Part shown: one piece after another, positions 1,726 to 64,000 of the stretch
Layout: each line of letters starts with the position of its first letter
Position numbering within the stretch: position 1 is the stretch's first letter
Assembly: GCA_963556255.1 (NCBI GenBank)
Contig: OY744610.1
Coordinates: 8,469,529 to 8,533,528, forward strand
Origin: Allolobophora icterica
Taxonomy: Eukaryota > Annelida > Clitellata > Crassiclitellata > Lumbricidae
DNA: 64,000 bases
Direction: 5' to 3'
Notes under the pieces: generated by a model
Told to the model about the DNA's origin: nothing
Database searches by the model: none
What the model saw: only the letters and a program-made list of their open reading frames with translations
Position numbers and translations under genes: made by a program

Positions 1726-2253
1726 AATAGTGTTGCATGAAGTGGGACCAGGAAGTTCTTTCTCAACGTTTTTCACTTTACCTCTTAACAAGCATTGGCA
1801 ACTGTTGTGTATTAATGGCTCACTCTTTGATTTGACTTTTGTTTCTGTTAAATTTGTACTCTGTGCTTCGCTTCTGTTAAATGAGAAACTTAGCTTTTTC
1901 TTTCTGCTAACTGGATACTTTCTGTTTTACTGAGCCAAATCTATTCTGTACATCCGACTGCAGCAGCTTGATAACACAGCAATGGGAAAAATACGTTAAA
2001 GTGCAGTATAAATTGTATACAGATATATATCTATATATATGTATATATATATGTGTGTGTGTGTGTGCGTGTGTCTGTGTAAATTTGTGTACTTATATAT
2101 GGATACATAAACGTGTGTGCTGGATGCGTGCATACAAAAGTAAATATATGCGCAATGCGCAAAATCAAACAGATTTAGCTGATATGAGAAATATGCATAG
2201 GGAAAATTTATGATAGTTGAATTATGTATAATGGTCCGAGTGATTGAGTTTGG

Positions 2254-2802
2254 CAAAGTTTTTGAGAGCGAGACTTTGGCTGACGGGTCCAGGAAGGTGG
2301 ACCATATTAACAAGATCGTGATTTGCGTCAGTTTCTGTTTGATTATGTCGAACTTATTTTAGTCATCGATACTCAGCCGATCATAACGAAACTTCAAACG
2401 ATCTTTAACCATCATAGCTCGCTTACGTGTTTTTCTCTTGTCTTTTCCAAAGATCTACAATGGTGTCAAAGTCGAAACATCAGAGCTTTTTATTCTGACG
2501 CCAACAATTTTGGAGAATTCGGGAGAATATTTTCGTTTCTTTCTTCAGCATTGTTCCGCGGAAAAATAAATTTCGTTCATTGACAAAATATTTAGATTAT
2601 GCTTGATGGTTTTTTGATCTATGAGAATCTAAATTTTCCGGCGAGTTTAGATGCTAATTTATTATAACTGAAATAGCTTACTTTTCACGCATTTAAGCAA
2701 TTAAGTTCGACATAATCACACAGAAACTGACGAAAATCACGATTTTCTTAATATGGTCCACCATCCTGGATCAGTCAGCCAAAGTCTCACTCTCAAACTT
2801 GG
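2254..2802. repeat. Foldback with inverted arms of about 105 bp
   Basis: The arm at about 2254-2365 is repeated in reverse complement at about 2698-2802, with matching blocks such as GTGGACCATATTAA, TCGTGATTT and GATTATGTCGAACTTA. The loop is about 330 bp. It ends some 40 bp upstream of the transmembrane exon. Unit 2 has the left arm at about 11025-11130, but its right arm is replaced by a SINE/LINE fragment, so the foldback predates the unit 1/2 duplication. It may be an old MITE or a structural intron element. Confidence 0.8.
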
Positions 2803-2844
2803 TACTTAAGGCATTAACTGTTATTTTGACAGTTGTTTTATCAG

Positions 2845-2961
2845 AAAGAGGTAAAATGGGAATTGGTGTTGGCATTGGCGTCGGTGGAACATTGGTTTTT
2901 GTCGGAATTCTCTTTGCTGTCCTATGCACGAGATTTGAATGGATTAGAAGAACTAAGACAG
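2845..2961 (+). CDS. Unit 1 transmembrane exon of an Ig-type receptor (partial gene)
   Basis: After an acceptor (TTATCAG) the exon reads in phase 1 and ends at a GT donor (ACAG|GTATTT), also phase 1. It codes RGKMGIGVGIGVGG, then a hydrophobic run (TLVFVGILFAVL), then CTRFEWIRRTK: a glycine-rich single-pass helix followed by a basic stop-transfer stretch. The helix resembles gene A's (VGLTVGLGG). An in-phase alternative acceptor (GACAG) lies 12-13 bp upstream. The next exon is the tail at 3324. The ectodomain exons are not visible in the window and may lie upstream of position 1, or the copy may be a fragment. Confidence 0.72.
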
Positions 2962-3323
2962 GTATTTTATGAATTGTACTAGTCTTGTTTATGTCATTTA
3001 GTAATACAGACTGTACGTCGACGCGTTATCCAAAATGAATGCATCTCTGCATTTGATTCATTAGTTCGTCATTCGTTCATTTTTTTATCCTAGATAAACT
3101 CATTAGCTCGAAACTTTGAAACTTGAAACTTTGACAAACGTTTATGAATCGCAGTTTGATTAATTTCCTAACATTTAAAAGAATTATTTAGAGGGTAAAT
3201 TCAGCGTTGAACGGATGCAACTACAAAAATCAGAGGTATAATTAGTGCAAATGAGAACTTATGTTTCTATGTTTACATTAAATGATTTAATAAATTTTTA
3301 TTTAACTGTCACTTGTATGGTAG

Positions 3324-3637
3324 ATGATAAAAGGACAAATGGAATGGAAGAAGATTGTGGAAGAATCCGAACCCACACAGACAATTCAAATGCTCCGCAC
3401 TACGAACCTCTCAATGTTCTCTCGGTGCAAAATTTGAACGCTGTTCCAACCTATGAACAGTTGACAACATCCACTAATGTCGATGTCAATGAACAGGATC
3501 TCCCAAACAGAGCAACTTACGAGAACATTGAGTGCAAGTTGAACGCAAATGAAACCAATTTAACCGAATATGAAAGTCTTCAGCAGGGAGAACTGGTGCC
3601 CGCAGGTGAATATCAGAGCATTAAATCTAAGCAATAG
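3324..3637 (+). CDS. Unit 1 cytoplasmic-tail exon with repeated YxxL/I motifs (ITAM-like)
   Basis: The acceptor GGTAG is followed by a phase-1 reading frame (G|AT) that fits the donor of the membrane exon at 2961. About 104 residues end in TAG. Five tyrosine motifs occur in order: YEPL, YEQL, YENI, YESL and YQSI. The last two are separated by ten residues, matching the ITAM rule YxxL/I-x6-12-YxxL/I; the first two are 13 apart. Such motifs recruit SH2 proteins in immune receptors, so a signalling role is inferred. The tail is acidic and polar with no other domain. The start Met of the longer open frame is intronic and not used here. Confidence 0.75.
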
Positions 3638-3640
3638 AAC

Positions 3641-4157: not shown

Positions 4158-4166
4158 GCCTTAACC

Positions 4167-4680: not shown

Positions 4681-5475
4681 TTGCATCACGAACAAATCCA
4701 GTCACTAATTCTTTTCCGGAAATTAATTTGGATACGCGTTACAAAAAAAACGGTAACCTTTAGCGAAGCAACAATGTCAATGCTGTAGATTAAACTTAGA
4801 GTTAATAACGGACTGTTAGTCTGTAATCTAAAGCACACAATCATCGCAAACACTTCTTCTGACAAGTGGCACTCTTGCATTGTGACTCTAAGTACCAGAG
4901 GGAAAATAATCTATTCAAGAGTGCTCAACTCGATAGTCGAATGGCGTAAGTATTCCTGACGTCGTTTTAGTAATTAATAGAGGAGGAACATTTATTGCAA
5001 CACAGTTCAAACCTATTTCGGAGGCCGTATTACAGAGTCGTAATCAGCAGATGCTTTATTATTAATGAGCAATCAGAACAGAACTGAATTATGTATTAGA
5101 CGTTTTGCACACCAAGTCTTTACTGGAAGATCGCTTCAACACCTAAGACCTGTCGCAGTGATCATCAGAAGTCAAGTGTATGTATGGTTTATCCTATTTA
5201 GCAACTGCACGAGTAAAAACTGCATAGACGATTGTCTGGGTATCTCTGTTTCCGATTACTAAAATACCGCTTTTTTATCAAATTTTTTCATCATGCCATC
5301 AGTAGGCCATGTACTGGAAGAAACGATATTTGATGTCCATGGAATCGAATAGTCAACGTGACTGGTTCTAGAAGAAATATGAAATCTAGGACAAATGGAC
5401 TTCATATTGTTACGTTTCCCTGGGGTGCTGTGGCTTCCTACCAGGATGCCTAACCCCGATTCTATAGTCCCTGAG
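4681..5475. other. Intergenic, no gene recognised
   Basis: Open frames here are short and resemble no family I know. Positions about 5325-5400 (CCATGGAATCGAATAG, AAATCTAGGA) match 10221-10275 of unit 2, so this is the upstream flank of the tandemly repeated stalk-exon region, interrupted later by the piggyBac element. Confidence 0.6.
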
Positions 5476-6618: not shown

Positions 6619-7595
6619 TTCCAGGGCCATTCCTGACAATTTGCGAAAGGCTCGCTCCATATCGAAGTCGGTACAAATTCATACAATATATACCGTCAAA
6701 GCCGGCAAAATACGGCATAAAGTTATGGATGTGCTGCGATGCTGAAACGAAGTACGTGTACAATGCCAGCATATATTGCAGCAAAGAGAGCGCTGATGCA
6801 GCTTCAACCAAAGATCTGGGAGGAAACATTGAACGTCAGCTCATACAACTTCTTGAATGTGGAGGTCGCAACATTACCACTGATAACTGTTGCACCTCGC
6901 TTGCCCTAGCTAGAGATGTTCTAAAGATAAAGAAATCTACTTTGGTTGGTACTATTCGTACTAATCGAGTAGAGTTGCCCAAAAAATTTGTTTCTCCCAG
7001 AGGACGCGAGATTGTACTCATCATTTGTCGGGTTCAATGAGACCGGCGACATGTCATTTCTTTCTTACAACTTTAAGAAAGACAAAGTGGTCATCGTCTT
7101 GTTGACTATGCACATCTCCAATGGAACTTTTAGTAAAGCACCAAGGAAACTTCCAGAGGTTATCAACTTCTACAACAAGACCAAAGTATTTGGTTGTGCT
7201 GACCAGATGATAGAAACCTTCAGCACGAAGTTCTCAACCAGCCTTTGGCCGGTAGTGCTGTTCTGCAACCTGCTTGATATTGCGGCACTTCAGGCTTACG
7301 TCCTTCGTGAGAAATTGAAGGTGGACAAAGCTCCAGTGAGTAACCATCATCAAGAAGCTGGGGGAAAAGACCTTTGCCAAGAGCTACATGTACAGGAAAA
7401 GCGATGCAACTCATCATGGACTGATTGGAGGATGACTGTTAGAGGACACTATGAACCTCCAAAGAAACGAGGTCGCTGCCAAGTTTTCCCAGACAGACGG
7501 ACAAAAAGGCCACGGCTGTGTGCAGGGCATGTCATAAGGATGTGTGCCTTGTCCACTGTCAAATCTTCTGTCAGACATGTCTCTCTGCTGATTGA
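6619..7595 (+). pseudogene. piggyBac transposase, N-terminus lost, frameshifted
   Basis: The translation contains family hallmarks: YIPSKPAKYGIKLWM followed by CDAETKYVY (first catalytic Asp region), TTDNCCTSLALA (second Asp), GTIRTNR, then in another frame YNKTKVFGCADQM with SLWP (third Asp region) and, in a third frame, a Cys/His-rich C-terminus with CRACHKDVC and FCQTCL. At least two frameshifts (near 7000 and near 7490) and the absence of the N-terminal half make it inactive. The intact protein would cut and paste DNA at TTAA sites. Confidence 0.9.
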
Positions 7596-8149
7596 TGAAA
7601 TACTTTCCTAGGCTCCTAGCAATCTCCTATGTTCAATCTAGCGTCATTTCATTGTACTGAGGGCACTATACATTAAGGCAGTGCTTCCCAACCTGTGTGC
7701 CGCGGCACACTTTTGTGCCGCGAGCGCGATGGAAGTGTGCCGCCGCCGAATGTCGGAAATCAGAAGTTTTGCATGACAATAATATCACTACATCATAATA
7801 TGCACTATCCCATACTGATAAATTGGTGAAGTCAAGTATAATTTCTGACCAGGCTGATTTAATTGTATGTGTATCTGCATAGACCACCGTGTGTTGCATC
7901 TATTAACTATGCGATGAACTAACTTACTTATTTACTCTGTCTACGACATCATCGTTAGTATGCTTCATTATTAGTCCTACGCATCTTTGTGTCATCGTAT
8001 AGTTTCAAATTCAATTTCTATGTTTCCTCGCCCAGTTAAAGTTGATCCATGTGCATTGTGCACGTGTATTACATGACATCGTTATTGAGTATAATTATGT
8101 CAGATTTGAAAGACAAGTTACAATATTATTTTCCAAGTTTAAATGTCTC

Positions 8150-9994: not shown

Positions 9995-10202
<208 letters not shown>

Positions 10203-11757: not shown

Positions 11758-11820
11758 AGTGCAATGAGTTCCTCTTGGTACTAAAGTCATTAACTGCTAT
11801 TCTGACAAGTGGTTTATCAG

Positions 11821-11945
11821 AAGGAGGTAAAATCGGAATCGGTGTTGGCATTGGCGTCGGTGGAATGTTGGTTTTAGGCGGAATCCTCTTTGCTGTTCTG
11901 TGCAAGAGATATGAATGGATAAAAGAAATAAGACAAGCATTTTAA
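11821..11945 (+). CDS. Unit 2 transmembrane exon, junction altered
   Basis: After TTATCAG the frame codes GGKIGIGVGIGVGG, a hydrophobic stretch (MLVLGGILFAVL) and CKRYEWIKEIRQ, very like unit 1. Where unit 1 has ACAG|GTATTT, unit 2 has ACAA|GCATTT, and one base is missing a few positions earlier. The conserved GT donor is therefore lost and the phase shifts from 1 to 0. Without splicing the frame adds AF and stops at 11943-11945, giving a receptor with almost no tail. The copy may be a pseudogene or produce a short form. Confidence 0.62.
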
Positions 11946-12329
11946 GAACTTTACCTGCTCTTGTCAGGTTTTTTTTTACATTTAAACATAATGAATATTT
12001 AACAATGATTAACAGTACGACTGTACGTCGACGCGTAATACAAAATAAATGCACACGTGCATTTCATTCATTGTTTCGTTATTAGCTCATTTATTCGCCC
12101 TAGATTTAAAACTCATCATACAGAGTGCTGCAAGAATTGTGTTGTTTGACACTTTAACAAACAGCTTATCAGCTTATGAATCTCAGTTTGCTAACTTTCC
12201 TTAATTTATATTCCTTTACATTTAGGGGATAAATTCTGAAGTGTAATTTATGCAAATCCACCTTGTATTAATCTGTTAACATAATATTGTTTATCATTAA
12301 AAAAAATTTAATTGCAACTTTTTTGGTAG

Positions 12330-12628
12330 ATGATAAAATGACAACCGGAATGGAAGGAGGTTCTGATGTAAACCGAACTCATAGAGACAGTTCAACTGTT
12401 CCACACTACGAACCTCTCAATGTTCCCTCAGCGCAGAATTTGAACGCTCAACCAACTTATGAACCGTTGACAACATCCGCTAAAGTTGATGTCATTGAAC
12501 AAATTCTCTCAGAGAATTTTGAGAACAAGCTGAGTGCAAACGGATCCAGTTTAACCGAATATGATAGTCTTCAACAGAGAGAACTGGCGCCTGCAGATGA
12601 ATATGAGAGCATAAAACCTAAGCAATAG
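12330..12628 (+). CDS. Unit 2 cytoplasmic-tail exon with ITAM-like pair
   Basis: Acceptor TTTGGTAG and a phase-1 frame of about 99 residues ending TAG. Motifs YEPL, YEPL, YDSL and YESI are present. YDSL and YESI are ten residues apart, as in unit 1. The unit 1 motif YENI is changed to FENK. The frame is fully open despite the broken upstream junction, so it may still be used through another donor that I could not find. The Met-initiated longer frame from 12287 starts in the intron. Confidence 0.62.
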
Positions 12629-14639: not shown

Positions 14640-16375
14640 TTGTAATTGTAATCGAGGATTTATATAGCGCCACTCATAATCAGAGGCGCTCCCGACCCGT
14701 GTCAGTGTCTTCACTGACAAAGAGAAATGTTTTCAGGCGCTTGCGAGACTGGGCAGGAGACAGAGAGAGGAGGACAAGCCTAAAGCCCTGAGGGAGGCTG
14801 TTCCAACTGGAAGGGCCCACAACCGCAAAACTACGGGACTGGGCAGTAGCAGTGCGCATCCAAGGGACTAACAAGAGGCCACGGGCAGATGACCGGAGAG
14901 AGGCCCGACCAGGCAAACTGGAAACTGGGGTGCAGTAAGCCCTGAGATACAGCGGAGCTGAGCCAACAAGACAGTTACGCATGAGGGAAAGGACCTTAAA
15001 TTGAATGCGTTGGTGAATGGGAAGCCAGTGAAGGGAGTCCCGGATGTAGGAAGAGATATGGGCAAACTTCATGATGCCCCCTACAAGGCGAGCAGCAGCA
15101 TTAAGGATGGACTGAAGTTTAGATGTGTTAGCAGAGGACAGGCCAATATAGACAGCATTTCCGTAGTCAATCCTAGTACAGATCAGAGCATGAACCAAGG
15201 TCACAATCGCATGCAGCGGAAGAGACTGGCGAATGGCACGAAGTTGGCGTAAATAGTAAAAACACGAGCGAGAGACACTATTGACATGATCAGATAGAGA
15301 AAGAGTAGGATCTAGGACAAATCCAAGATCACGGACAGAGGAGGAAAAGTACACATTGGGAAACCTGAGGCGCAGAGAGTCAGCATCAATCCTGGCAAGC
15401 TGGACACGATTGCCAAGCCAAATGTACTTGGTTTTATCATAGTTAAGACGAAGGCGATTTGAGGACAACCAGAGATCAAGAGCAGAGGAAGCCTCCAGGA
15501 TGCGTTCAACCATAAGAGCAGCTGAGTTGGCTGGACCATGGAGGTATGCCTGTGTGTCATCAGCGTATTGGTGAGACAAAACACCCATTGGACCAAGAAC
15601 CCCAGCTAGATCCGAGGTATACAAAATGAACAGAAGGGGGGCGAGGACAGAGCCCTGAGGTAGTCCATATGGGATGTGGGTCCAAGGAGAGCGGGTAGGT
15701 CCAAAAACAACAGAAACAGAGCGATCAGTAAGGAATGAGCGAAACCAAAGAAGAGCAGAGTCAGCAATGCCAAAAGATTTAGATAAACGGTCTAAGAGGA
15801 TGGTATGGTCTACAGTATCAAAGGCAGCGCTGATATCATAAAGAGCAAGTAAAGTGACCTGGCCACGATCAAAGGCTTGAAATACTTCAGCTAGAAGGCG
15901 CAGTATAAGCGATTCTGTCGAGTAGAATTTCCTGAACCCAGACTGAAGAGTAGGCATAAGAGAGTTAGAGTCAAGGTAATAGATCAGTTGACAAGAGACA
16001 CATTTTTCCAGAAGCTTTGAAAGAAAAGAGAGGTTTGAGATAGGACGATAGTTTGAAGGAGAGTTAGGATCAAGGCCTTGGCGCTTAATGGAAGGGAAAA
16101 CCACAGCCCTTTTGTGCAGTGTCGGGACATAACCTTGAGCTAGAGAAGAATTACACAGTAAAGCCAAAAATGGAGTCAATTCATCTACAAAGTCCTTAAC
16201 TAGAAATGGAGGAAGCAGGTCTAGTTCACACGACTTCGAGGAAGAATCCAGTATCAGCTGACGGATTACAGATGGCTCAAGTGGTTTCCATGACGAGAGG
16301 CTAGCTGTAGTAGAAGTGAAGGAAGGAGGTGGTACAAAGATGCATAGCGTTGCTGTCCTCGTGTTTTAAGGCTTG
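14640..16375 (-). mobile_element. CR1/L2-type non-LTR retrotransposon, 5'-truncated
   Basis: The 3' end (on - strand) is GGGAGCGCCTCTGATTATGA, then GGCGCTATATAAAT and a short TTACAAAT-type repeat tail, typical of the L2/CR1 group, which lacks poly(A). The 5' end runs into a TA microsatellite near 16440. The open frame continues upstream of its first Met at 16179 to about 16370, so the coding part is cut at the 5' side. No endonuclease domain is left. Confidence 0.88.
14680..16179 (-). CDS. Reverse transcriptase of an L2/CR1-like LINE, 499 codons from first Met
   Basis: The domain order fits the family: SNYRPISNLSFLSKLLEKCV (RT motif 1-2), a QSGFRK-STES motif, ALYDISAAFDTVDH (catalytic Asp), GLPQGSVLAPLLFILYTSDL, then HQYADDTQAY (YADD active site). 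The thumb and C-terminal region follow, with SLHWLPIHQRIQFKV and a WNSLP motif. The frame is intact over 499 codons, unusually well kept compared with other LINE pieces in the window. It lacks the endonuclease region because the copy is truncated. The protein would copy LINE RNA into DNA at a nicked target. Confidence 0.92.
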   Translation of the reverse strand: MTPFLALLCNSSLAQGYVPTLHKRAVVFPSIKRQGLDPNSPSNYRPISNLSFLSKLLEKCVSCQLIYYLDSNSLMPTLQSGFRKFYSTESLILRLLAEVFQAFDRGQVTLLALYDISAAFDTVDHTILLDRLSKSFGIADSALLWFRSFLTDRSVSVVFGPTRSPWTHIPYGLPQGSVLAPLLFILYTSDLAGVLGPMGVLSHQYADDTQAYLHGPANSAALMVERILEASSALDLWLSSNRLRLNYDKTKYIWLGNRVQLARIDADSLRLRFPNVYFSSSVRDLGFVLDPTLSLSDHVNSVSRSCFYYLRQLRAIRQSLPLHAIVTLVHALICTRIDYGNAVYIGLSSANTSKLQSILNAAARLVGGIMKFAHISSYIRDSLHWLPIHQRIQFKVLSLMRNCLVGSAPLYLRAYCTPVSSLPGRASLRSSARGLLLVPWMRTATAQSRSFAVVGPSSWNSLPQGFRLVLLSLSPAQSRKRLKTFLFVSEDTDTGRERL

Positions 16376-22183: not shown

Positions 22184-22550
22184 TTATGAAGAGCGGGTAA
22201 GATTAGCAATGTGTTCAGAAAAGGTGAGCGTACTCTCAAGGACAACACCAAGGTCACGGACACTAGAGAGAAAAGCGAATGACGGGAATTTCTCAGCAAG
22301 AAGTGGGAAGTCTAGTTTGAGGAGCTGTTGACGAGTACCAAACCATATAAGCTGCGTCTTAGTTGGGTTCAAAGAGAGACGATTAGAAGACAGCCAAAGG
22401 TGTAAATCACGTGAGAGAGCATCAATGCGTCCTGTTAATGCAAGCTGTGCAGAGGGAGTGCAATGAACGAGCGCTTGGGCGTCGTCTGCATAAAGATGAC
22501 CAGTTCATATGTGCTTAGCAAATATAGCGGAAATGTCAGCCGTGTATATG
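22184..22550 (-). pseudogene. L2/CR1-like LINE, internal reverse transcriptase fragment
   Basis: The - strand codes LNPTKTQLIWFGTRQQLLKL and SSVRDLGVVLESTLTFSEHI, preceded by WLSSNRLSL and a DDAQA remnant of the YADD region. These are the standard palm-to-thumb segments of L2-like RT. Truncated at both ends. Confidence 0.88.
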
Positions 22551-24492: not shown

Positions 24493-37199
<12,707 letters not shown>

Positions 37200-42120: not shown

Positions 42121-42269
42121 TCGGCACCCTGCACGTACGCCAAACACGATGAGAACCGTGATAGCGACAGCCTTTTTAATGATGCTTTCGATCTCTCGGC
42201 ACCCTGCACGTACGCCAAACACGATGAGAACCGTGATAGCGACAGCCTTTTTAATGATGCTTTCGATCC
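42121..42269. repeat. 75-bp tandem duplication in the element's 3' untranslated part
   Basis: TCGGCACCCTGCACGTACGC starts both copies (42121 and 42196), and they are nearly identical. Farther on, an AACGCAAT(T/G)AAGCG motif recurs at about 42498, 42627 and 42740. Confidence 0.9.
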
Positions 42270-42822: not shown

Positions 42823-43065
42823 TCATCCATCCAAGCGAGGTTTTCGTCTCGTCCGTCGTCCAGGTGGCAATTCTGGATCAGCGGTCTCGTCTGGATTTTC
42901 TGAAGGTTCCTCTGGTTCATGTTCTGCATTAGAATCTTGAGCCAGGACTGGCCAGTCTACTGTAGGTAACTCAAGATTTCTGTCCCTCTCCGGTAACCAG
43001 GTACTCGGAGGTTTACCGTAAAACGGCTTCAATTTATCCACGTGCACAACCATTAGCGTGGATTT
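42823..43065 (-). pseudogene. Integrase C-terminal end, out of frame with pol
   Basis: The - strand frame codes SPKSTLMVVHVDKLKPFYG, the standard end of Ty3 integrase beta-barrel regions (V-H-V-D-x-L-K-P), then a Pro/Glu-rich tail ending RRTRRKPRLDG. The open frame overlaps the end of the long ORF but sits in another frame, and nothing between is left of the DDE core. Confidence 0.88.
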
Positions 43066-49000: not shown

Positions 49001-49112
49001 TGACTCTCGAGTTATCGTCAATCGGGGAAAACTCTGAACGTTCTCTTGTCCGAGAGGACAAGGTGTACATCTGACGAGTCGTCACGTCGTGCCGTCTCAA
49101 ACACGCGAACAT
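43053..49112 (-). CDS. Gag-Pol polyprotein of the Ty3/gypsy element, 2,019 codons
   Basis: Residues 1-750 are charged and low-complexity (Arg/Glu/Ser). About 760-900 is a retrotransposon Gag domain (YDGKSAIAAFLAKFEVCARC to about LDAYGR). A CX2CX4HX4C knuckle lies near 1020 (CYLCKRKGHVKRFC), and the protease LLDSGSEMS near 1087. RT has FCIDYRQLN (about 1450) and YLDDIIVFS (about 1551). RNase H has LDTDASAYAIG (about 1700). The integrase HHCC zinc motif lies at about 1955-1995 (HFGIRKS, CQRCDRC). It stops 14 residues after GEPMERF, where the catalytic core should start. Gag, protease and RT look intact, with no gag-pol frameshift. The first about 188 codons lie in the 5' LTR. Confidence 0.93.
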   Translation of the reverse strand: MFACLRRHDVTTRQMYTLSSRTRERSEFSPIDDNSRVMRCRMVREGSVKAEKKRKSLTKRSHRKLRTPAGKRANPVLKDGHPEDEDVAHPATAAVAESESEMELDSDTVRKQAIPSEPPLGEMGTESGDREPLVYSRSRQDSDPGDSRRSVGWSRTQPDDEAASRVRPTQIGTTSDEGLVDLERRTSQTGTRSGVLAFSCHRNRQGQEDTEDESDEVPHSEHGGARPKLRKRKSKRRLLDETGAPDETSAFETEAGTRSGRERGFHEDNGWLITVPKTTEVVQNDVNNETFTHWREAVGESRFDRSKPLVDNRSGNLVQVQVPSIVRGRQPVQLRQACDRPRDIETGLKPRGDAVVQKTSGDIVAHQRNEGNRVPFTNMEEGRPRPVTDDVDWQAEMSYLRQSVAMMSSKLEELSVPAAQHAKSYRRETSGKPTGPGYQMDRRGKLQIEEPARSRGNTETREEVSLSETSEKLRSRYLPEDSGRESHGKTARQSSRQRLLTRGRVEAKLRSSVSSSDSDTDSVGPEEAMRTGVFDRKNLRQRGRHESYEKTERETYGKERLPEYERHGLKQALDRETERESNMGRDRDHLAWDETLERYSKGHKPDSRSRNCLRYDESDRPPESGKRDIREEDRRVTFVNGNSQSSRNKYKRSESKDYEGGEPRRKGQRQAEYISDEDSATSGDREMTTMSSKWRTGKTLGTLRGQSRHWSVVRTDEENDSRSNDEDNRRGNPKKSVGRSLVTRTRGEDRSDRGIRIKLEKYDGKSAIAAFLAKFEVCARCNRWSDQEKADQLMCALTGPASQLLWDMGAQRDVSWRELVERLKARYGSDDQTSLYRMKLRTYRQAHGETLSSVVQEVRRLMALAYPGPTSDIVETVACDAFIDALANQDLGQKVREREPVNLEAAYKHAVRLDAYGRSSTQGGDLDRRHARVKVTMEDRKDSSTEGQQSRRLEDLERKIKNLSRELDRVTINQNLGIVPRKPHERENSSDLAVGDQRTTEPNVGWRRIYPPTRLRNPDIECYLCKRKGHVKRFCPQRNAETNGATGTSEPTKAEPIQEETQNRLVKGSRVAYVVARLAGKRIHCLLDSGSEMSLVPRRFVLDAVLVPSEQRLLAANGSQIKVDGETNLKIRIGKQVYPVPCLVTDQVTEVILGLSWLEANQARWDFASRCVFLGSEKIPLKEVVTESMCRRVIVQEDIIVPPRSEVDVPAWVVYPHFQKDNEDWTTIPMELSKDLIIGRTLVTGRDTEVWIRMLNVGDRDSLVKKRTECPLERVNVVDVTVNRARTESYDEPYRSENPEKPMGPGYPEERRGKQQSTIDRFGSKISTTARVAEQTLNPLAEQTLKRLWEEVPADISEEERIRLRKLVLTYSATFSLNESDNGFTSVIQHEIDTGQEKPVRQPLRRQPLSMLPEVDRQVEDMLRQGIIEPSISEWASNVVMVKKKDGSMRFCIDYRQLNLKTRKDAHPLPLIRESLDTLGGARWYSTFDLRAGYHQMALHPRDKHKTGFVTRRGSFQFKVLPFGLCNSPASFCRLMNLVLTGLNYDICLVYLDDIIVFSRDVETHMQRLEMIFRRLQEYNLKLKPSKCYLLQQRVLFLGHVLSEEGVATDPSKIKAVEEWSAPRNLRQVRSFVGLCSYYRRFIHDFAVVAQPLHFLTRKNVPFHWTDECQGAFEELKRKLVSAPILGLPNDEGQYILDTDASAYAIGAVLSQVQEGEETVICYASRLLSTAERNYNVTRRELLAVVYFLKEFRQYLLGSKFLLRTDHSALQWLRRTPEPIGQQARWLEMIEEFDMEICHRPGAKHGNADAMSRGPGEEQPKVVTMRVTNEDVMWARPIGEVTRSEVTSEDTGQEIRWTKEFLRREQQSDYNIGTVLDWKESKHHPIQAELSPANGEVKVLVSNWNQLEVLQGVLHRGWIQGNTGKAERSQLVVPLSLRQEMLQLTHASFAGGHFGIRKSLTQLQRRAYWPSWKDDVRRFCQRCDRCARYRREKPPRQGYMQTPVVGEPMERFRRVRNPR
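48530..48546 (-). promoter_or_regulatory. tRNA primer-binding site
   Basis: Three bases after the 5' LTR end the - strand reads TGGTACCAGAAGTGGGG. It starts with TGG, complementary to a tRNA CCA end, at the usual position. The gag-pol frame runs through it (coding TGTRSG). Confidence 0.85.
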
Positions 49113-50746
49113 CTTGCGATAATATATACACGTGTAATATTATCGCGGTATACTGGTCTCACGACACTCTCTTCTGATAGGACAGGTTCTAGGTTTAAAA
49201 CCTCCCTAACCGCACGCAGAACTGGGTTCCGACCGGCGCACGAGGTGGGCCCTACTTCGCACTTCGGTCAGTTCTCGGGACTACGTGTTTCGATCACCAA
49301 GTTATTTGCTCTGAATAACGATTGGCTTGAATACAAGATTTTCCTGACTCTATCGTTTTCCTGGTCTTACCGCACTGTAATCAGTTGTCGGGCGGTCTTT
49401 TCCCGTACTGCGGTTTTTCGGTAACAGTGGTCTTTCCCAGTAACTATTTTTAGTTACCGGGCGATGGAGCCCCTCCAACGCTCCACCGGCGTGTCAGCCA
49501 TCCAAGTGTCACAATCCAAATGTAACGCCGACCCCGTAAGGTTACCAGAATGTCCTGAATTTTGTTCCCAAGAATTTCCGAATTTTGGTTCCCTAACGAG
49601 GGTCACGCTTACTCCCACAGGTAACCGGACAAGCTCCGATCCTGCCTGTCGCCAAATTTACCCTTATTATCGTTTTTGTACTAAACTGGTTTTTTCAGGT
49701 ATCCCGACGGTCACTTCACCGAGTGCCGAAGTCGCGTAAAACTCTCCCAGCCGATGACGCCGAAGTCGCGTAAAATCCTCCCGGCCGAGTACGCCGAAAG
49801 TGCGTAGAACTTCCCTTGTGTCGAGTACGCCGAAATCGCGTAAAACTCTTCTCAGTGTATAAAACCAAACACTGTCGGATCTTGGAGTTCTTCGAACTCC
49901 AAGAGGGATTTCCTTGCCCGACGCCAAATTTACTCTTGGTTTCAAGGATTTCAGAATTCCAGAAAATGGCTACCTTAAGAAGGTCACCTCTACTCCCATG
50001 GGTTACCGGACAAGCTCCGATCGCGGAGTTCTTCAAAACCCAGGAGGGACTTTCCTGCCCGTCGCCAAATTCACCCTGGTTTTCGATCTCACACTGAATT
50101 GGTTTTCCTGTGTATCAACGGTATCCTTCCCCGAGTATTACTCAGCCGTAGATTTCCCACGATCGGGATCTAGACCGCTTCGCGATCAACGGAGGGATCC
50201 AACCCGCCGGATCGGCGCTGTCGGCCCGTCTCCCAACAGTGAACTTCTTTAGCTGTACTCGGGATCGCCTGATTATATTATTCGAACGCCCCTTTCGTCC
50301 GTAAATATATTTGTACTAACCGGAAACTCGAACTCTGACTCTGTCGTAACCAAAATCACTCGCCTACCACACTGAGTGCAGTATATTTTAATCGGTAACT
50401 GAATCGCTAACCAACAACGCTGTTTCACAGTATTGCTATGTATGAAGAGTCGAACCAACTCTTCACGTATAAAGCAGCACACCGTGAGGCAGGCTCTATG
50501 CATCCCGAATTAACGCGTCTGCTCGCTATGCGCTGGCTTTACACCTTCGATCGGGCTTCCCTATCACGGTCGTTGCCGGACCGTCGCCTATTGAAATTAA
50601 ATAAAAATTAAATGATCGATGCTGGGTCTTCGCATGAAAAATTAAGAGAAACGATGCTGTTCCCTTCGCATGTAAACTGAAAGAAAACGATGCTATTCGC
50701 ATAAAATAAATCTTCCCACTTACGCACTGTGGCCTTGACCGCCACA
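48550..50746 (-). repeat. 5' LTR (with respect to the - strand element)
   Basis: Same as 39779-41975, with no difference in any frame I compared. It must hold the promoter. On the - strand a TATA-like TATATATTATCGC lies some 20 bp before the gag ATG (49112), but a TATA that close would put the start of transcription inside the frame, so the real promoter is probably farther upstream. Degenerate GCCGAAGTCGCGTAAAA units at about 49725-49844. Confidence 0.93.
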
Positions 50747-50949
50747 ATAAGATCAAGCTAGGCAAAAAGCAAAGTGTAATAAGTTAAGTAAAGTAAGTAC
50801 GGTGAATTTAGCGAAATATGGCCAATCGACGATGATGTTATTTTATTTAAGTGTAGAATTCATTATGTAGCTTGTTTGTTATATATTTAACTACATTGAC
50901 CCTAATCAGTTTAAGGTTATCTGTAGGCCTAGTTCAGACTGCAGGTGGT

Positions 50950-51800: not shown

Positions 51801-52035
51801 TGCACATGACTGTGTACTTCTATGCATCAAATAACTACATTATGTTGACAGGAAACCCCTAGACAGTGCATTTGTGTTAGTTGTAAACATTTTGCAGACC
51901 AAATAAACATCTTGTCCCTTAGAGGGTTAATTAAAAGTTTTATGAATGTTCAAACAAACAAGCTACATAATGAATTCTACACTTAAATAAAATAACATCA
52001 TCGTCGATTGGCCATATTTCGCTAAATTCACCGTA

Positions 52036-53254: not shown

Positions 53255-53262
53255 TCACGCAG

Positions 53263-55571: not shown

Positions 55572-55664
55572 AGGTTTGCTAGAGTTTTTCTTCAAAGACC
55601 ATATTTATTAGCCTATGTTTGGCGTTCAGGTTGTTTATGAAGAACATAATAGAAATATTAAAAT
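55572..55664. repeat. 93-bp direct repeat, copy 1
   Basis: Identical to 56011-56103, 439 bp downstream. Lies upstream of gene B exon 1. Confidence 0.95.
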
Positions 55665-55924: not shown

Positions 55925-56012
55925 ATGACCGAAGGCTACAAAAGATACGTGATTCTTAAAGTGGCATTCAGTCTGCTAATGTTCTCTTTGTTGAAAGATA
56001 TATCAATAGAAG
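55925..56012 (+). CDS. Gene B exon 1: signal peptide
   Basis: ATG after a conserved UTR acceptor (TTGCACAG|TGAACAG). MTEGYKRYVILKVAFSLLMF then SLLKDISIE; hydrophobic core VAFSLLMFSLL. Phase-1 donor GAAG|GTTTGC at 56013. Confidence 0.75.
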
Positions 56013-59000
56013 GTTTGCTAGAGTTTTTCTTCAAAGACCATATTTATTAGCCTATGTTTGGCGTTCAGGTTGTTTATGAAGAACATAATAGAAATATTAA
56101 AATCGTAGGCCTATTTTTCAATTTTTATCAACAACAGCCTCACGTTATCACATCGTTTTCAGAAGACCATATTTTTGCTCATCTTTACAATCAATCTGTG
56201 CATTATGAAATTCATTTCTTGGTTAGTCGATACATTGCGTGTTTATATCAAATAAATACACAATTACTCGTTAATGAGATCTACTTCTCATGGAACCTTT
56301 AAGAAATCGCTAACTTCCAAGATAATCATGACTATTCTTCAAGCTCTATTTTTAAAATTTCATTTATGTCCAAGAATTTATGTTACTGACACTTTATTTT
56401 ATGCCAGACACCGGCAAACCGTTGACAAGAAGATTACCTTCGTTAAATAAGTCGCACTTTTCCAGAAGTTATTGCGCAGTAGACCCTATATAAACAATCT
56501 TTATCACGCGATGTTTTTTTAATGGAAAGGTTACAGTTTCAATCCCGGTTTTTTTCATGGTGTTTGATCTTGCATTACGGATCTGTTGTCTTTTGTGTAA
56601 GGTGTTGAGTGCTTGACGAATATGAAGAATATGGCGGTTTACGAAGGACAACAGACCACAATAACGAATCTAACAGCTGACACTCGTAACGTAAGTTGGA
56701 CAATCATTCCAACTTCTAACGATGTTGGTAGTTACACTATCTGGAATGGCAGTCAAGTGGATCCTTCATTGACTAATCTCTTCAGCGTTAATCAAAACGG
56801 TCTAGTAATACGTAACGCTACAACGACTCCAACTGGTCAAGGTCCGATTTCAACTTCCGGTCAGTACATCGCACAGTGTCTGGTAGATGACAATATGACA
56901 GGAGCCAAACTCCTTGTCGTCCGTGAGTATTTTAAGTGGTATTGATGTTCAGTCAAATCAAATCAACTATTCGTTTACTACTCATACCAGTTGACATAAC
57001 GCAATTGGTTTGCAATCTCCGATATATATTAAAGTGTTTAAATAATCTCTCAGCAGTCCCTCACCCTTCTCTATGCTAATAGAAGTTTCGGTATACAGAA
57101 CCCGCGACATAAAGTTGTGTCATTCTTATTATGGAAGGGAGAAGTTGTGAGCCCGAGGGCGAAGAAGATAAGGGGTTGGTCGGCTCTTGGGGAAGTAAGG
57201 GCGAAGAACATGTTGTGGATTTGAGGCCACTGCTTTAAATAGCTCATCACTAAATAGGTCACCTGTCAAGCGAGCGTGATCATCTGCTTTCTGGTTGGTC
57301 TTTGGGTGGTAGATTGTCCAACTTACGTTACGAGTTAATTTTACGTAAACGTGTTAAGAGCCTATCCACCTGTTCCTTTCTCCTTGCTCAGGTAAGAAAA
57401 ACCCCACGATAGAGGGGAGGCAAACATTAATGAGGATAGCGTGGTAGCTCAGGCAATCTCATACAGTGTTGTTGATGGAAACCCATGTAATCGAAGGACT
57501 CCCAGTGCATAGAGGGATGAGGTTGAAGCCGTTAGGACTGCGTACAGATGTAACCCCATCTTTAAATCGGTTCGTTCTATAATGACGAGTGATTGATACG
57601 ACAAAAATGAGTGTGACAACTGATATTCTAGTTATGACGAAGCTGAGCCTTCTCATTATGTGACGTCTACAGGATTCACCCGAAGAGTCATTAGGCCTAC
57701 GTTAGTTAACCTGGGAATTAGCCACACGTAGAAGAGAACTTCGCGATCAGAATATAAAAGTAATATCATGAAAGAACTGAATTTCAGTTACAAATAATTG
57801 AAAATATAATAATAAAATATAAATGTAAAACCCATTATGAACATAGGCCTACCGCAATGTGATAAACTTCTCAAACCGAATTCAGAAGAACAGTTACAAG
57901 CCACGCAGCGATCCGGGCAAGACCCGAATGCCGTGAATCCCAAACTCCAAGTTTATATAGATTTTCCCCGCGTGGGTGTGGTCACGTGGTCCATCGAGGC
58001 CTCTCGACAAAGGATAAAAAAACAGGACAGCAATTTGGCAGAATCGAACAAAAGATCCGAGCTAAAAGAGCAATGCACCATGCTCGCTGGATGGCGAAGG
58101 CCATCTATGCTCTGAAGACCAGCTGAAGCTGACGGCCCGACAGAAAAGCAGACTGACAGAGCTTTCCCTTTTTGTTGCTTGCATTTGTGTATTGCTGTTT
58201 CTGGCATGAAGCTCCACTGGGATCGATTGCTGCAAAGAATGATGCTTAGTCTGCTCAAGATGTATCCGAATCGCCTTGTTGCCACAGCATTGTCTCGTCA
58301 CCTTTGGTACTTTTCTTAGCACCTCATAGTATTCGACAGTCGGGTTCACACAAATGTCAAGAGAGCCATGATAGCCAACCTCCAGCTTGCAAAGATTTCA
58401 TCGAATCTGTGAAGGGTGAATGCCACCACAGTCGCTGACTTCTGGAGACTGAACCATTTTCCCCTTAAAGTTTCTGAGCATCACGTGACCCAGAAGATGG
58501 AAAGATGAAGAGTCCTACTAGAAGTTTAAAGCAAGAGTCCTAACCATGAAGGTGGTCAATGACAGAGCTGAATGTGGCATTGCACTCATCCAGAAATACA
58601 ATGAAACGATCACAAAAGATGAAGATCAGAAGCAGTTTTTGCTCCAGTTTGTCCAGCGCCTCAGCCTGTTGTAACTCACCCTATCCAAAGCAGCCATGAT
58701 TACTAACAGATAAGCACTGTAAACTGTTGCTATGCAAAGTTGCATACACAGTTTGACTATATCCTTCAGACTTGATAAAGTGCATAAAGTAACCAGTTTT
58801 TAAATGCTGCATTCGTTCTGCATTCATTCGTGTCAATGTCAATAGTGAATTTTATCTGAAAGACTATTTTCACGACTAATGCCTGTTACGGTTGACAGAT
58901 ACCAGTTAACAGTTTTTCAATTGTTTGATTATTGTTCACTTTCTGTTACTAAATGTAAGAAAATAAAAATATGGATGTAATTACCAAAATTAACTCGCTA

Positions 59001-62000
59001 TTCGCTATTTTTCTAAAAAGTGATAATTCATAGCGACCCCTAATATTCTCGGATTAACTTCAAAATTTGTCACAAAATTCAAAGTGTTACATGTAACAAG
59101 GGCAGCCTTGTGGAGAAACAAATTTCTAAATTTCATTTTTTTGGACCACCATATTGACGACGGATTGAAGCTGACGCATGCTGAACTTCGGCAGGCCAAC
59201 AAGGATGGAATAACAAAAGTCAAAGTGCGTCAGATGAAAGAATATAATTATCAGTGTCTCTACAGGACTAAACGATATCGCGCCAAATGACCCTTACAAA
59301 ACGCCACTGGTGATAGCAGAACCTGCATTGCGAGTTCACGTCGCCAGTCATGGTTGGTTCTACGTCCATCCGCACACCAAGATCACGGACGATAAGTTTT
59401 TGACTACATTCACTTCTTCACCAATCTTGTGTGCCACACCAGAAATACTACGTCTTCGTCTGATTGCAAGTCATCCATAACTGTTCTTCTGCAATACTCT
59501 AGCGCAGCGTTCATCTTTAGATCCAAGTTTAATAGGTCATATTGCACAGTGTAAATGTAAAGCTGTAGGCCTATATAAACCTTTTGATTACAAGTGAAAC
59601 AAGTTGATTTGTTTAAATCAAATATACCTCAAACCGACGTCTGGCTTGCATGAAACCCTATCAAGAATGAAAGCGTCAAACAATTTTCGAACACTTCAGT
59701 GAAGAAAATTCCTATAATGTTATAACATCTCTTTTTTTCACTGTGACAGGTAATCCTCCAGAATGTTCATGCAATGCTACTTCACCAAACGCTGTACAAC
59801 TATCATGTAGTATACGTTATGCCGATACCACAGTGCATCCGATTAATGCTATTATGACTTGGAAAATCGGTGACGTAGTTTACACTAGTGACACTCCTCC
59901 AAGGGCGAGGAGTGATAACTATGTCTTCCAATCTACATCAACAATTACAGTGAACACCAGATCCACCGCAAACTGGGAATGCACAGTTACCTTTAATGCA
60001 CCAACTCATGTTGATAATCCATTCATCGCAACGAATGCACCCGAGTTCAGCGCATCTTGCTCAGTAGCAGGTGAGTTTTTACAGTCTGTTGCCGAACTAT
60101 AAGGCAATCAACTATGTTAAGTATAGCATATTATGACAGATAAGGATATATAAATAGCATAGGAATAAGTATATTGCTTTTAGACGGATACGATGACAAT
60201 AGTATTTGCCTTTGCAAATGCATTATTATTGTAACACTTCTATTAGAAAACTACTCAAATGATCTTCCCATGTGAAAACTCAATAACATAATCGAATAGA
60301 ATGGTCTTCAGTGTCGAGTGAAGCGGAGGCAGAGACAGAGTAAGGATCTCAAATCACAGATTGCAGGTCTATTCCAAAGCGAATTGAATTGCCAATCACG
60401 ACGAAGCTGCAATGTTATATTTCGGAAGTACGAGAATGAGGTAAAACCAGAAGCCTTGTGCTGCACGACGTAATCGTAATCGTAAACTTCAAATTATGAA
60501 AGCGTTACTATAAAGCTAAGCGCAGGGCACCAGCTTATTCACGATAACTGAAGATATTCACTTTATTACGTACGGATGACTCTGAAATACAGAGCTCAAG
60601 GCCAACAGATACACGTCAGAAAAAGTATCTGAAACTTAGTTCTCCTTCGCATAGGAAGCCGATGCAGCTCATCCCTTATTTAGCCAGCTATTTTTCTATA
60701 TATAGGCCTAGGCCTAGCTATAATGATCTGAAGAACATAAACTCTACTGAGGTCTATTAATAGAAACAGGTTAGATCTTGGAACTGACCCATTAACCCAA
60801 TTTTTAAAGTTGTACAGTGAGCGAGTGATGAAGGATTTCTTACAAAACAGTGTGTGAAAGTATGGTAATTGAAATGTGTGTTTGTAGCGTTCTCGTCGCC
60901 CTCTGGCGACCACGCGCCCTGTTACAGAGCATTGGCTGACCGGAAATGTTGCCCAAGGTTCGAACGCGAGTTTGCCTTGAGCCCCGCACCTGAGCTCACT
61001 GGAAAAACATCATGCGCTATATGTTTTGTATGCACCAGGGATGGACACTGAGATATGTCGAGATGTCGGAGCGTGTGTTAGGTTCATTTGCTACTGCAAC
61101 AGTACTTTCGGCGGGAAAGTTCCCGCGCAAAGGTCAACTTCCCGCGCTAACTGTGACACACTGTTTTCTAATTTTTCCTGGCGCCAGATAAATCCTTTCA
61201 CGATATCACACAGTTCAAATATCACACTGTGACAGAATTATCAGCCATAATTCCCCTTTATTTCAAATGTTCTTTATTAATATGACAAAAATTATATAAT
61301 CATCAAATTCTACTTCTGCTACTCACTGGTGGCAGTTTAATTAGGCCTACATTTATCATTTCAAATTGTCTATCTAGGCCAAATGTCAAATTATACATTA
61401 AAAGAAACTAGCTGCAGTTATTCGGTTTCAGCTCCGCTAAAGAATCTCTCAAAATAATAATAACCACAATCGCTCAAGTTATCGGAAAGTTCCAGTTACA
61501 TTAAAATTACGCAATTGACTACGGGCAAGAGTGAAATTAAACAAATCAGTTCTTAAAAGAATTGGAAACGATACTCAGCCTTAACCGCTTCAAATGTCAA
61601 CCTCTTAGAACTGTCGATCGATTCAATTTAATCGAACAGAACTAGACCAAAACTGACAATTACGAAACCATAGAAAGACACAGGCAACACTGACACGGCA
61701 CTAGACTCACCCTGTCACACACACTGGCTTACACGACACTGGCAAAAACACCTCTGGCGCGCAATTAACGTGGCCGTCCCTTATTATAGCAATCTTTATT
61801 CGCTCGCAAACTTTCCTCCAATTCACCAGCCAATCAGTAGACTCCGAATCTACCGCGCTCAGTTTTCATTAGCGTGTTATAAATAGATTTTAGCATATGC
61901 AGCGCCATGGAAATGTCTATTTTCGCCTGGCCTGCATCTATGTGGCGCTGATTATTGAAAGGCAAAATTATTGTTCGTTACATGTTCCCTTATTCGTAAG

Positions 62001-64000
62001 TTAAATTTATGAAGGTGCATTGCTGGCGGTAATTGTTGAACACAGTGATGGGGTGACTGGATGCTTTTAAAGAACTTCAGTTCAGTTTTCTCACAAATCT
62101 TCCCCAACGTTAAACTGTCGCCGCTAGAGAGGTTGCTGCACCCAGCAACTGAAAGGTTCTTATACATGTTCGTGCTTCTGGAATAATACATGGGGAGCTA
62201 TTTTTAGTATGCATTCTGATAAAAAAAATCAGCACAATCACTAGTATAGGTCTGGAAATACGTAATGTTCAGATGATCTACTGTCTCGTACTCCTCGTAG
62301 CATGGACCAGAACCTGATGGCCAATGCACCGTTGATCCCATCATATCACAATATTACCGGTTCTTTCAACAATAACAATTTGTTTATTATTGAAATAGTT
62401 ATCGCGTCAGTCCAGTTGAATTTCACTGAGAACAGAAATGTCATCAAGAAGTAAATGGCGTACAGCGTGGTGGCTCAGTGGTAAGTTCGGCGCCTTGTGA
62501 CCGGAGGGTTGCAGGTTCGAATGCCACTCTAGCTGCTGCGTACGGACCTTGAGCAAGTCCTTCACTCGCGATTGCTCGTGGCGCTTCGGCGTGAAAATTC
62601 CGGCACAGTATGAAATGATATAGTCGGGAGCGCCTCTGAGTAGTAGTAGATTTGGGGAGGCGCTATAGAAATATCAGGAATAAATAAACAATCTAGAAGA
62701 ATCGTCACAGATGGTCACACGTACACAATCGGAAATTCCAAACCCACTTTAGACGTCGATAAAGTTGCGCGACTACAGGCGTTGCATCCGTGAATGACAA
62801 TGACATCGCCTAGCAGACAATCGTTAGTGAAAGATGATCCATGTGCGGCTATCCAAATTGTCACAGAACTGGCAAATGCTCTTTGTCTTCGAAAAGTGCT
62901 CACTGATGCTTGTGGGGGAGTAAAAACAAAGAGTTTGGCCTATTCAAGAGATTCCAGAAGTAATGGCCATACATACGTACACATTCATATGAAATGGGGA
63001 AGGTATTTTAAAGTCAGCTAGGAAGAAAAGAACTTATAGTGATCATGTAAAAGAGTGCAACACTTTAAAACAATGTGCTAAAGCATCAAAAAGGCTAACT
63101 CAACCATAGGCATGATAAGAAGGATAATAGCCACCAGAGAGCTGATACAATTTACTCATATTGTACAAATATCTGGTTAGGCTACAGTTGGAATACTGCG
63201 TACAGGTAAATGGAATCAACATCCGAAACAGGACATAGAAAACTAGATAAAGTGCAAAGACGGCTACAAAAATGATTTGAGGCTACCAAGATTTAAGTTA
63301 TGCAAGAAGATTGAAAAGGTGTGGCTACCAACATTTGGGTAAAGAAGAAGGCGACATTTGATTGAAGCTTAGGCTACACGATTATAACTGCAAAGGGAGA
63401 ATTACAGTGGCAGAGGTTCTTTGAATTTGCACCAAGCAAGGCAACCCGAGGACACAGGTTTAGGCTATAAATTATTTAAGTAATCGAAATGAACATTAGG
63501 GCAGAATTCTTCAGTGCAAGGTTCGTTGACTTGTGGAATGGTTTGGATGATAGTACTGTCTCATTGGACACTATCAGAGCTTTTAAGCGGTAGTTTGTAG
63601 AATTGGCCTATTAAGCGTTCCAGGTTAATTTGCAGTGGTCCTAGCACAGAGCCACTTAAAAGCCTTGTTATTTTATGTTAAATCTTTATTTATTGCAGGC
63701 ATCCTACAAGATAAAAACAATCGTTAACGGTAAACCCATTATTGAATTTATTTAAATAATAGCTCTTCAGATCTCACTGGAACCATTAGTCGGACCAATA
63801 GCTGGAGGAACGAACATCACGATAATTGGATCAGCGACAATTGATCTATCGAGATGCTACAGCTCAAATATATCAGATATAAGAGGTGTTAGAAATGTCT
63901 ATATTGGAAATGATTTGTCTGCAACATCCGTGTCCTTTTCACCTAATGGCAGGTTAGAGGAATACGTAATCCAGTACGTTCAGCATAACATTATACTTTA
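55925..64000 (+). CDS. Receptor gene B (paralogue of gene A), incomplete at window end
   Basis: Exons recognised: 55925-56012 (signal peptide), 56602-56922 (V-like Ig), 59750-60070 (C-like Ig), 63763-63952 (IPT part 1). All are on the + strand with matching phases up to exon 3. The next junction (phase 1 into 63763) also fits, so exons 1-4 could be contiguous. I saw no counterpart of gene A's second Ig pair, mucin exon or canonical Ig exon between 60071 and 63762. The rest of the gene lies beyond the window. A cell-surface recognition protein is inferred. Confidence 0.78.
56011..56103. repeat. 93-bp direct repeat, copy 2, starting at the exon 1 donor
   Basis: Identical to 55572-55664. Its first bases AGGTTTGCT include the GT donor of exon 1, so the duplicated block supplied, or kept, the splice site. 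Confidence 0.95.
56602..56922 (+). CDS. Gene B exon 2: V-like Ig domain
   Basis: Phase 1-1, 107 codons (GTGTAAG| and |GTGAGT). GVECLTNMKNMAVYEGQQ, NVSWTIIPTS, NGLVIRNATTTPTG, GQYIAQCLV. The B-strand Cys is absent and the F-strand Cys present, with the early VEC Cys as likely partner. Several sequons. Close to gene A exon 4. Confidence 0.88.
57060..57980. other. Intron 2 of gene B, no exon seen
   Basis: A GCGTGGTAGCTCAGG motif at about 57439 recalls a pol III A box and could be a SINE scrap. Nothing else is recognisable. Confidence 0.4.
57990..58690 (+). pseudogene. DNA transposon protein remnant, same family as 17033-18967
   Basis: Frames give HARWMAKAIYALKT, LSRHLWYFS and finally VVNDRAECGIALIQKYNETI followed by DEDQKQFLLQFVQ with a stop at about 58676. 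The HLWY block and its order match the 17-18 kb element, whose C-terminal part reads VHDHRRNFPECKKE. It is an old, frameshifted copy in intron 2 of gene B. Confidence 0.7.
59750..60070 (+). CDS. Gene B exon 3: C-like Ig domain
   Basis: Phase 1-1, 107 codons (TGACAG| and AGCAG|GTGAGT). PPECSCNATS, VQLSCSIRYAD, NAIMTWKIGD, ANWECTVTF, APEFSASC: B-F Cys pair, core Trp and outer Cys pair as in gene A exons 3 and 5. Confidence 0.9.
60071..62462. other. Intron of gene B, no exon recognised
   Basis: I looked for Ig or Thr/Pro repeats and found none. About 60895-60912 shows a short GTCGCCCTCTGGCGACC inverted repeat. The remaining sequence is AT-rich, with several TAGGCCTA words, which are common across the window. 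Confidence 0.5.
62463..62690 (+). mobile_element. tRNA-derived SINE with L2-like 3' end
   Basis: GTGGCTCAGTGGTAAG (A box) and GGTTCGAATGCC (B box) form a tRNA-like head. The body has GACCTTGAGCAAGTCCTTCAC, and the tail reads GGGAGCGCCTCTGAGTAG, GGCGCTATAGAAATA and AATAAATAAA. The tail matches the 3' end of the LINE at 14640. Confidence 0.85.
63030..63620 (+). pseudogene. CR1-like LINE, C-terminal RT fragment
   Basis: Pieces read KANSTIGMIRRIIATREL-type, LEYCVQ-W-type, DIEKLDKVQRRLQK, then AEFFSARFVDLWNGLDD and LDTIRAFKR. This is the C-terminal pattern of CR1 pol (LEYC-Q-W-P, EK-QRRATK, FF--R---WN-L). Stops and shifts throughout. Confidence 0.8.
63763..63952 (+). CDS. Gene B exon 4: first half of an IPT/TIG domain
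   Basis: Acceptor AATAATAG|CTCTTCAG, phase 1 to phase 2 (GGCAG|GTTAGA). ISLEPLVGPIAGGTNITIIG and VYIGNDLSATS are nearly the same as gene A exon 8. An alternative acceptor (CTTCAG, 63770) would change the phase and is less likely. Confidence 0.85.

Follow-up and report, generated by a model that had tools for sequence, protein, structure and literature searches.

A large complex of immunoglobulin-domain receptor genes on chromosome 9 of the earthworm Allolobophora icterica, a candidate for self/non-self distinction

We analyzed a 64,000-nucleotide stretch of the genome of the lumbricid earthworm Allolobophora icterica (chromosome 9:8469529-8533528 in a 1.118-Gb assembly; hereafter the window). 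The window is a small part of a chromosome-9 region with many genes and exons that encode surface receptors with immunoglobulin (Ig) domains. Two receptor families are interleaved in this complex: genes with an IPT-type stem (IPT genes) and Ig receptors whose tails carry YxxL/I motifs. A first-pass annotation had described four head-to-tail paralogous units or parts of one receptor type in the window. Spliced models and aligned blocks bore out the head-to-tail paralogues at that place. The units are not parts of one receptor type, however: units 1 and 2 have a different membrane/tail exon from the IPT genes, and unit 1 also has different Ig exons. We therefore rejected a single receptor type with mixed tails in favor of two families.

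The first-pass annotation had recognized one complete gene, A, and our model agrees: 13 exons (24517-37199), with hand-picked boundaries based on splice signals and on paralogues, give a frame of 1,277 codons (1,277 amino acids) with no internal stop. The encoded order is signal peptide, V-like, C-like, V-like and C-like domains, mucin region, V-set-like Ig domain, five IPT-type exons, and membrane span with tail; the mucin part named earlier corresponds to a 36-nt repeat in 18.8 copies. All 12 acceptors are AG and 11 of 12 donors are GT, the exception being a GC at the signal-peptide exon. The first intron apparently opens with this GC (24569-24570); genes C, D and E, downstream of the window, have GT at that site. 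The phase-1 junctions of the first-pass annotation held for the Ig and mucin exons, all of phase 1-1, but not throughout, as phases 2 and 0 also occur among the IPT exons. When the stem of gene B was searched against proteins and the 8,000 candidates with the most words in common were scored, one relative emerged, P0001 (61% identity across 56% of the query). In this protein the IPT3, IPT4 and membrane exon types follow one another with no intron between them, supporting two splice junctions of gene A. It opens with apparent intron sequence and may therefore stem from a transcript spliced only in part, or from another animal's gene with few introns.

Gene B is a paralogue of A. As in the first-pass annotation, the window contains its 5' part, starting at 55925 and running out of the window; the membrane/tail exon is open to 67820 with no stop reached. 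An exact 93-nt repeat (55572-55664 and 56011-56103) flanks the signal-peptide exon of B, and its second copy provides the shifted donor. Upstream of the window lies gene Z (-60.5 to -46.7 kb), and downstream genes C, D and E start at 74.9, 92.4 and 108.7 kb (window offsets). For Z and C we used single exons; no IPT1a exon was found in C, and no signal peptide was assigned in Z. No Ig pair was found in gene D, whose tail (window offset 102923-103510) contains four tandem copies of a 24-residue repeat with YDDYLQ or YEDYLQ. Gene E has one Ig pair and no stem within the 53 kb examined downstream.

Units 1 and 2 belong to the YxxL/I-tail family, for which our evidence is at the exon level. As annotated before, unit 2 is a tandem copy of unit 1, with aligned blocks at 71-88% identity; its C-like exon was found only in part. 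The Ig exons of unit 1 lie upstream of the window, at -4289 and -3478, and a further similar unit occupies -83 to -67.6 kb. Pfam Ig matches of the Ig exons in this family stay below cut-off (best E 4e-4). The positions of all modeled features in the window are collected in the table.

Table. Exons and exon regions of the two receptor families in the window
Feature	Position	Strand	Basis
Gene A signal-peptide exon	24517..24568	+	GC donor; family pattern with 27 genome matches
Gene A Ig1, V-like	24730..25056	+	Spliced model, V-like profile
Gene A Ig2, C-like	26401..26712	+	Spliced model, C-like profile
Gene A Ig3, V-like	27019..27348	+	Spliced model; query of V-like genome search
Gene A Ig4, C-like	27839..28153	+	Spliced model, C-like profile
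Gene A mucin exon	28545..29339	+	18.8 copies of 36-nt unit; rich in Thr, Ser, Pro
Gene A Ig5, V-set-like	29904..30227	+	Pfam V-set E 7e-5 (below cut-off); CRTAM V-type domain E 2.7e-6
Gene A IPT exon 1 (IPT1a)	30637..30829	+	TIG E 0.022 (below cut-off); homologous to B 63763-63952
Gene A IPT exon 2 (IPT1b)	31316..31492	+	Spliced model
Gene A IPT exon 3 (IPT2)	34838..34973	+	Spliced model
Gene A IPT exon 4 (IPT3)	35293..35643	+	Spliced model; continuous with the IPT4 and membrane exon types in P0001
Gene A IPT exon 5 (IPT4)	36272..36445	+	Spliced model; P0001
Gene A membrane span and tail with stop	36852..37199	+	Spliced model
Gene B signal-peptide exon	55925..56012	+	Shifted donor; family pattern
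Gene B V-like Ig	56602..56922	+	Spliced model
Gene B C-like Ig	59750..60070	+	End shifted by hand from 60064 to next GT; frame unchanged
Gene B IPT exon 1	63763..63952	+	Rest of B past window end
Unit 1 membrane-span exon region	2798..2944	+	Protein identity 72% to unit 2 copy, 63% to copy at -68471
Unit 1 tail exon	3317..3637	+	Five YxxL/I motifs; stop 3635-3637
Unit 2 C-like Ig exon remnant	4789..4956	+	Block -3295..-2908 vs 4804..5167, 78%
Unit 2 membrane-span exon region	11774..11942	+	Matches unit 1 copy
Unit 2 tail exon	12323..12628	+	Four YxxL/I motifs; stop 12626-12628

Far from being confined to the cluster first noticed, the complex spans at least 13 Mb of chromosome 9, with V-like and C-like matches from 98 bp to 13.47 Mb. 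We searched the genome with a V-like query (Ig3 of gene A) and a C-like query and scored the best 150 of 247 and the best 150 of 277 candidates, respectively, so that the counts of both exon types are lower bounds. Chromosome 9 held at least 145 V-like and at least 147 C-like exons. Stops were absent from all 150 scored C-like exons and from 144 of the 150 scored V-like exons (together 294 of 300), and many of the scored exons were less than 50% identical to the query. At least 81 of the 147 C-like exons had a V-like exon within 4 kb upstream on the same strand (median distance 1.2 kb), a minimum because both lists hold only the best 150; for none of the 147 was there a V-like exon within 4 kb on the opposite strand among the matches listed. 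A 33-kb array at chromosome 9:7.454-7.487 Mb contains four V-like and three C-like exons in a single orientation. Two of these V-like exons (C9:7456035 and C9:7483887), 28 kb apart, are 83% identical, against 38-74% for the other pairs among the four, and are perhaps part of a higher-order repeat of several Ig pairs.

The signal-peptide pattern of the family (33 bases, up to three mismatches) matched the genome 27 times, always on chromosome 9; a reversed-pattern control gave no match. The IPT3 exon gave 64 genome matches, which we merged by hand into about 50 places. Chromosome 9 accounts for 26 of these, at 8.07-10.21 Mb (equivalent to about 26 IPT bodies), and the others lie on C3 (11, ten of them at 78.70-78.90 Mb), C6 (six), C8 (four), and C11, C179 and C184 (one each). 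At 8.02-8.58 Mb, nine of ten signal-peptide matches have an IPT body between them and the next signal peptide, usually preceded by listed V-like or C-like exons; three further signal-peptide matches, at 7.87-7.93 Mb, have no IPT body before the next one. The YxxL/I tail exon had 16 genome matches, 15 of them on chromosome 9, including eight between IPT genes at 8.22-8.48 Mb.

Profile searches indicated which domains these exons encode. Pfam TIG scored above cut-off in spliced B (E 3.1e-11, three stretches) and spliced D (E 1e-10, two stretches), in agreement with the IPT part proposed by the first-pass annotation; in gene A, with 8 of 13 exon frames scanned against Pfam, TIG stayed below cut-off (E 0.022). 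Compared with solved structures, B matched MET (E 1.2e-4) and plexin-A1 (E 2.4e-4). By these matches, the IPT genes are predicted to carry MET/plexin-like IPT/TIG repeats. A C-like profile built from six sequences matched solved antibody constant domains (E 4.4e-7), and Ig5 matched the solved V-type domain of CRTAM (E 2.7e-6), so a search of structure databases, an idea of the first-pass annotation, found solved domains for the C-like type, Ig5 and the B stem. No single exon reached the curated Pfam cut-off for an Ig family. On profile evidence, the C-like and Ig5 types can be assigned to the immunoglobulin superfamily. The V-like type (that of Ig1 and Ig3) aligned to the Ig5 type over 98 columns (hhalign probability 93, E 2.4e-7), and V-like exons are likely to have an Ig nature, to which they are linked through the Ig5 type alone.

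Comparisons between IPT genes revealed that A and B are mosaics. Including introns, DNA similarity between them begins at 30629, just 5' of the first IPT exon, and continues in blocks to 37456; across the Ig part, none was found at E 1e-5. We compared synonymous difference (pS) in four gene pairs, using five body exons each. In A-B, Z-B and B-C, pS was 0.64-0.67 in the Ig pair and 0.24-0.30 in the body, with non-overlapping bootstrap intervals; for A-B the values were 0.66 and 0.24, and the second Ig pair of A differed from that of B by 0.65. This pattern would reflect either exchange of Ig pairs between genes or homogenization of 3' halves, and new combinations would result in both cases.

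The first-pass annotation had called motifs in units 1 and 2 ITAM-like, after the immunoreceptor tyrosine-based activation motif (ITAM). The spacing that a strict ITAM requires (YxxL/I x6-8 YxxL/I) occurs in none of the eight tails read, and we rejected the strict reading. What stood is a looser resemblance in one family: all three YxxL/I-family tails contain one pair at the wider spacing YxxL/I x6-12 YxxL/I (x10 in each), as opposed to none of five IPT-gene tails, and their tyrosines are concentrated inside YxxL/I motifs (5 of 5, 4 of 4 and 4 of 6; equalled or exceeded in at most 0.2% of shuffles).

The layout resembles that of invertebrate allorecognition and immune loci, as first suggested, and in a more extreme form than the first-pass annotation could see: on one chromosome, two families are interleaved, the number of Ig pairs varies, mosaic genes occur and most frames are open. 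Clustered, duplicated Ig receptor genes, one mark of an allorecognition complex, are present on chromosome 9. Given family, layout, mosaic ages and the animal itself, the best single reading is that the receptor complex diversifies and serves non-self or allogeneic recognition, with a probability of roughly 0.6. The locus is a strong but unproven candidate for self/non-self distinction in the earthworm. Each IPT gene combines a signal peptide with zero to several V-like/C-like pairs, in some cases a mucin stalk and V-set-like Ig domain, and then an IPT stem that leads to a membrane span and short tail. The signal peptide would deliver this single-pass receptor to the cell surface, where the N-terminal Ig pairs, as the variable part, would most likely contact ligands on other cells or microbes, presented away from the membrane by the more uniform IPT stem together with the mucin region. 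Signaling might be direct or, for the YxxL/I family, most likely pass through SH2 proteins as phosphotyrosine adaptors. New specificities would come from tandem duplication and the exchange of Ig modules onto common bodies.

Several observations weigh against recognition of this kind. The five IPT-gene tails contain no ITAM, and one of them (Z) has a motif of the immunoreceptor tyrosine-based inhibitory type, which about 8% of shuffles also produce. Stops interrupt 5 of 16 YxxL/I tail matches. The remainder of the structure search was negative: the V-like type found no Ig among solved structures, with none of its six members matching a Pfam Ig family, and a search there with the profile of just the IPT3 exon gave no IPT domain. 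The closest gene pair, A-Z, is not a clear mosaic (pS 0.25 vs 0.18, with overlapping intervals). The ratio of nonsynonymous to synonymous change (dN/dS) was below 1 for all exons in nine gene pairs; there is thus no sign of positive selection at the exon level, an idea that found no support. Finally, the array at 7.454-7.487 Mb had no recognizable signal peptide, membrane span or stem in profile searches of plus-strand frames and tblastn searches of both strands, which could miss a diverged exon, so that not all Ig exons appear tied to a receptor.

The main rival, which we consider unlikely, is a family for wiring or tissue adhesion, in which arrays of Ig exons would give cells identities for self-avoidance or sorting in the manner of Dscam, on an IPT stem from plexin-like ancestors. 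The resemblance of the stem to MET and plexin-A1 speaks for such a role, and frame-keeping Ig exons in arrays would permit alternative exon use; spliced B and D, however, have no Pfam match to a Sema, plexin-GAP or kinase domain, and the complex consists of many separate mosaic genes, not one conserved gene with exon arrays. Somewhat less likely again, arrays of V-like/C-like pairs that lack a start or stem could be cassettes joined to the roughly 26 IPT bodies by alternative splicing, trans-splicing or somatic change, giving an anticipatory repertoire that underlies specific graft rejection. Diverging surface receptors, some of them mucin-stalked, would also fit gamete or mate recognition in a hermaphrodite, but hundreds of Ig exons far exceed the gamete recognition families known to us, and we regard this role as improbable. 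We give the same low probability to a complex that arose mostly as a side effect of unequal exchange where the chromosome is unstable, with most arrays unused or decaying. Some copies have decayed, with stops in five of the 16 tail matches and in six of the 150 V-like exons scored, and the interleaved retroelement frames would agree with this reading; against it, 294 of 300 scored Ig exons are open although many are less than 50% identical to the query, a point weakened because first-look scoring may favor intact copies. Copy number inflated by unpurged haplotypes is very improbable: according to an excerpt of its description (PMC11530748), which also names a deposited alternate haplotype (GCA_963556245.1), the assembly is phased incompletely and had 189 haplotypic duplications removed, but three near-copies of the start of gene D are 88-93% identical over 0.6-1.5 kb and the compared V-like exons are mostly much more diverged, which makes haplotype duplication unlikely as the sole source of copies.

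Mobile elements and repeats also lie in the window. Between genes A and B, a long retroelement-type frame (43053-49139) stands between two long direct repeats (39779-50783, minus strand) that agree at every position in the 300 nt compared (39779-40078 against 48550-48849; 100% identity); by eye, the element looks like a young long-terminal-repeat retroelement. A non-LTR reverse transcriptase frame lies at 14680-16365 (minus strand; Pfam RVT_1, 4.6e-23), an RVT_1 fragment at 32295-32675 (plus strand; E 0.0028, below cut-off) in the intron of gene A between IPT exons 2 and 3, and a third reverse transcriptase fragment, recognized by eye, at 22184-22504 (minus strand). A piggyBac identity suspected by eye for the open reading frame at 6973-7608 was dropped, as Pfam gave it no support. 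A perfect 83-nt inverted repeat (50798-50880 and 51953-52035, 1.07 kb apart) is perhaps a small DNA transposon. Long TGA/GAT microsatellites occupy 31701-32129, in a gene A intron between IPT exons, and 9996-10200. Elsewhere in the assembly, seven TIG matches in open frames of 537-588 codons lie on one strand within 92 kb (C5:2734242-2826089, minus strand) and represent another IPT family in tandem array. In the mitochondrial sequence, COX1 reads with the invertebrate code and is followed by COX2, ATP8 and COX3 (these three named by eye), the gene order of annelids. At C8:61145195-61147845, stretches similar to COX1 run in opposite orientations and contain TGA codons in frame; they are probably nuclear copies of mitochondrial DNA. 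The 28-kb contig C257, with a stop-free 721-codon COX1-like frame, is probably bacterial.

Our literature search found no description of such a receptor family in annelids, which does not prove it unreported; in a word search of two annelid genome papers, immunoglobulin was not mentioned. We know of no molecular locus for earthworm graft rejection. This reaction, under study since 1969, gains a testable candidate locus, and the named chromosomal interval could be used in tests of linkage, polymorphism and coelomocyte expression. The complex would also be an example, from a protostome, of receptors that set modular Ig pairs on a MET/plexin-like stem. Allograft rejection is documented in earthworms and leeches in the abridged text of PMC2248247.

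Among known systems, Dscam1 has Ig-exon arrays that keep the reading frame, a feature in common with the earthworm arrays; the earthworm has instead many separate genes, each with a signal peptide and stem of its own. An IPT/TIG stem like that of earthworm B is found in MET receptor kinases and plexins, but the earthworm genes have N-terminal Ig domains, and a Pfam search of spliced D and of spliced B minus the signal peptide gave no Sema, PSI, kinase or plexin-GAP match with E of 1 or below. To our knowledge, no IPT stem or mucin repeat occurs in the Alr complex of Hydractinia and Podocoryna. The likeness there is one of layout: duplicated genes of the Ig superfamily (IgSF) are clustered on one chromosome with outliers elsewhere. 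In the excerpted account of Podocoryna, the allorecognition complex comprises clustered IgSF genes, with 22 putative genes inside and eight named genes outside (PMC13119343), and according to excerpts of a second paper some Hydractinia candidates carry ITAM or ITIM motifs (PMC12065747). The earthworm complex differs in that its Ig exons number in the hundreds and are spread across at least 13 Mb. The same excerpts describe Ig-type receptors with ITIM/hemITAM motifs at the Botryllus fuhc/fester locus (PMC12065747), a likeness in receptor type at a single locus; that locus differs in its Ig/Sushi domain make-up, and genetics ties it to fusion phenotypes, whereas the earthworm locus is known from sequence. 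As far as these excerpts go, clustered Ig allorecognition receptors are thus already known from Hydractinia and Botryllus, and the earthworm complex would be a variant with an IPT stem and mosaic Ig pairs.

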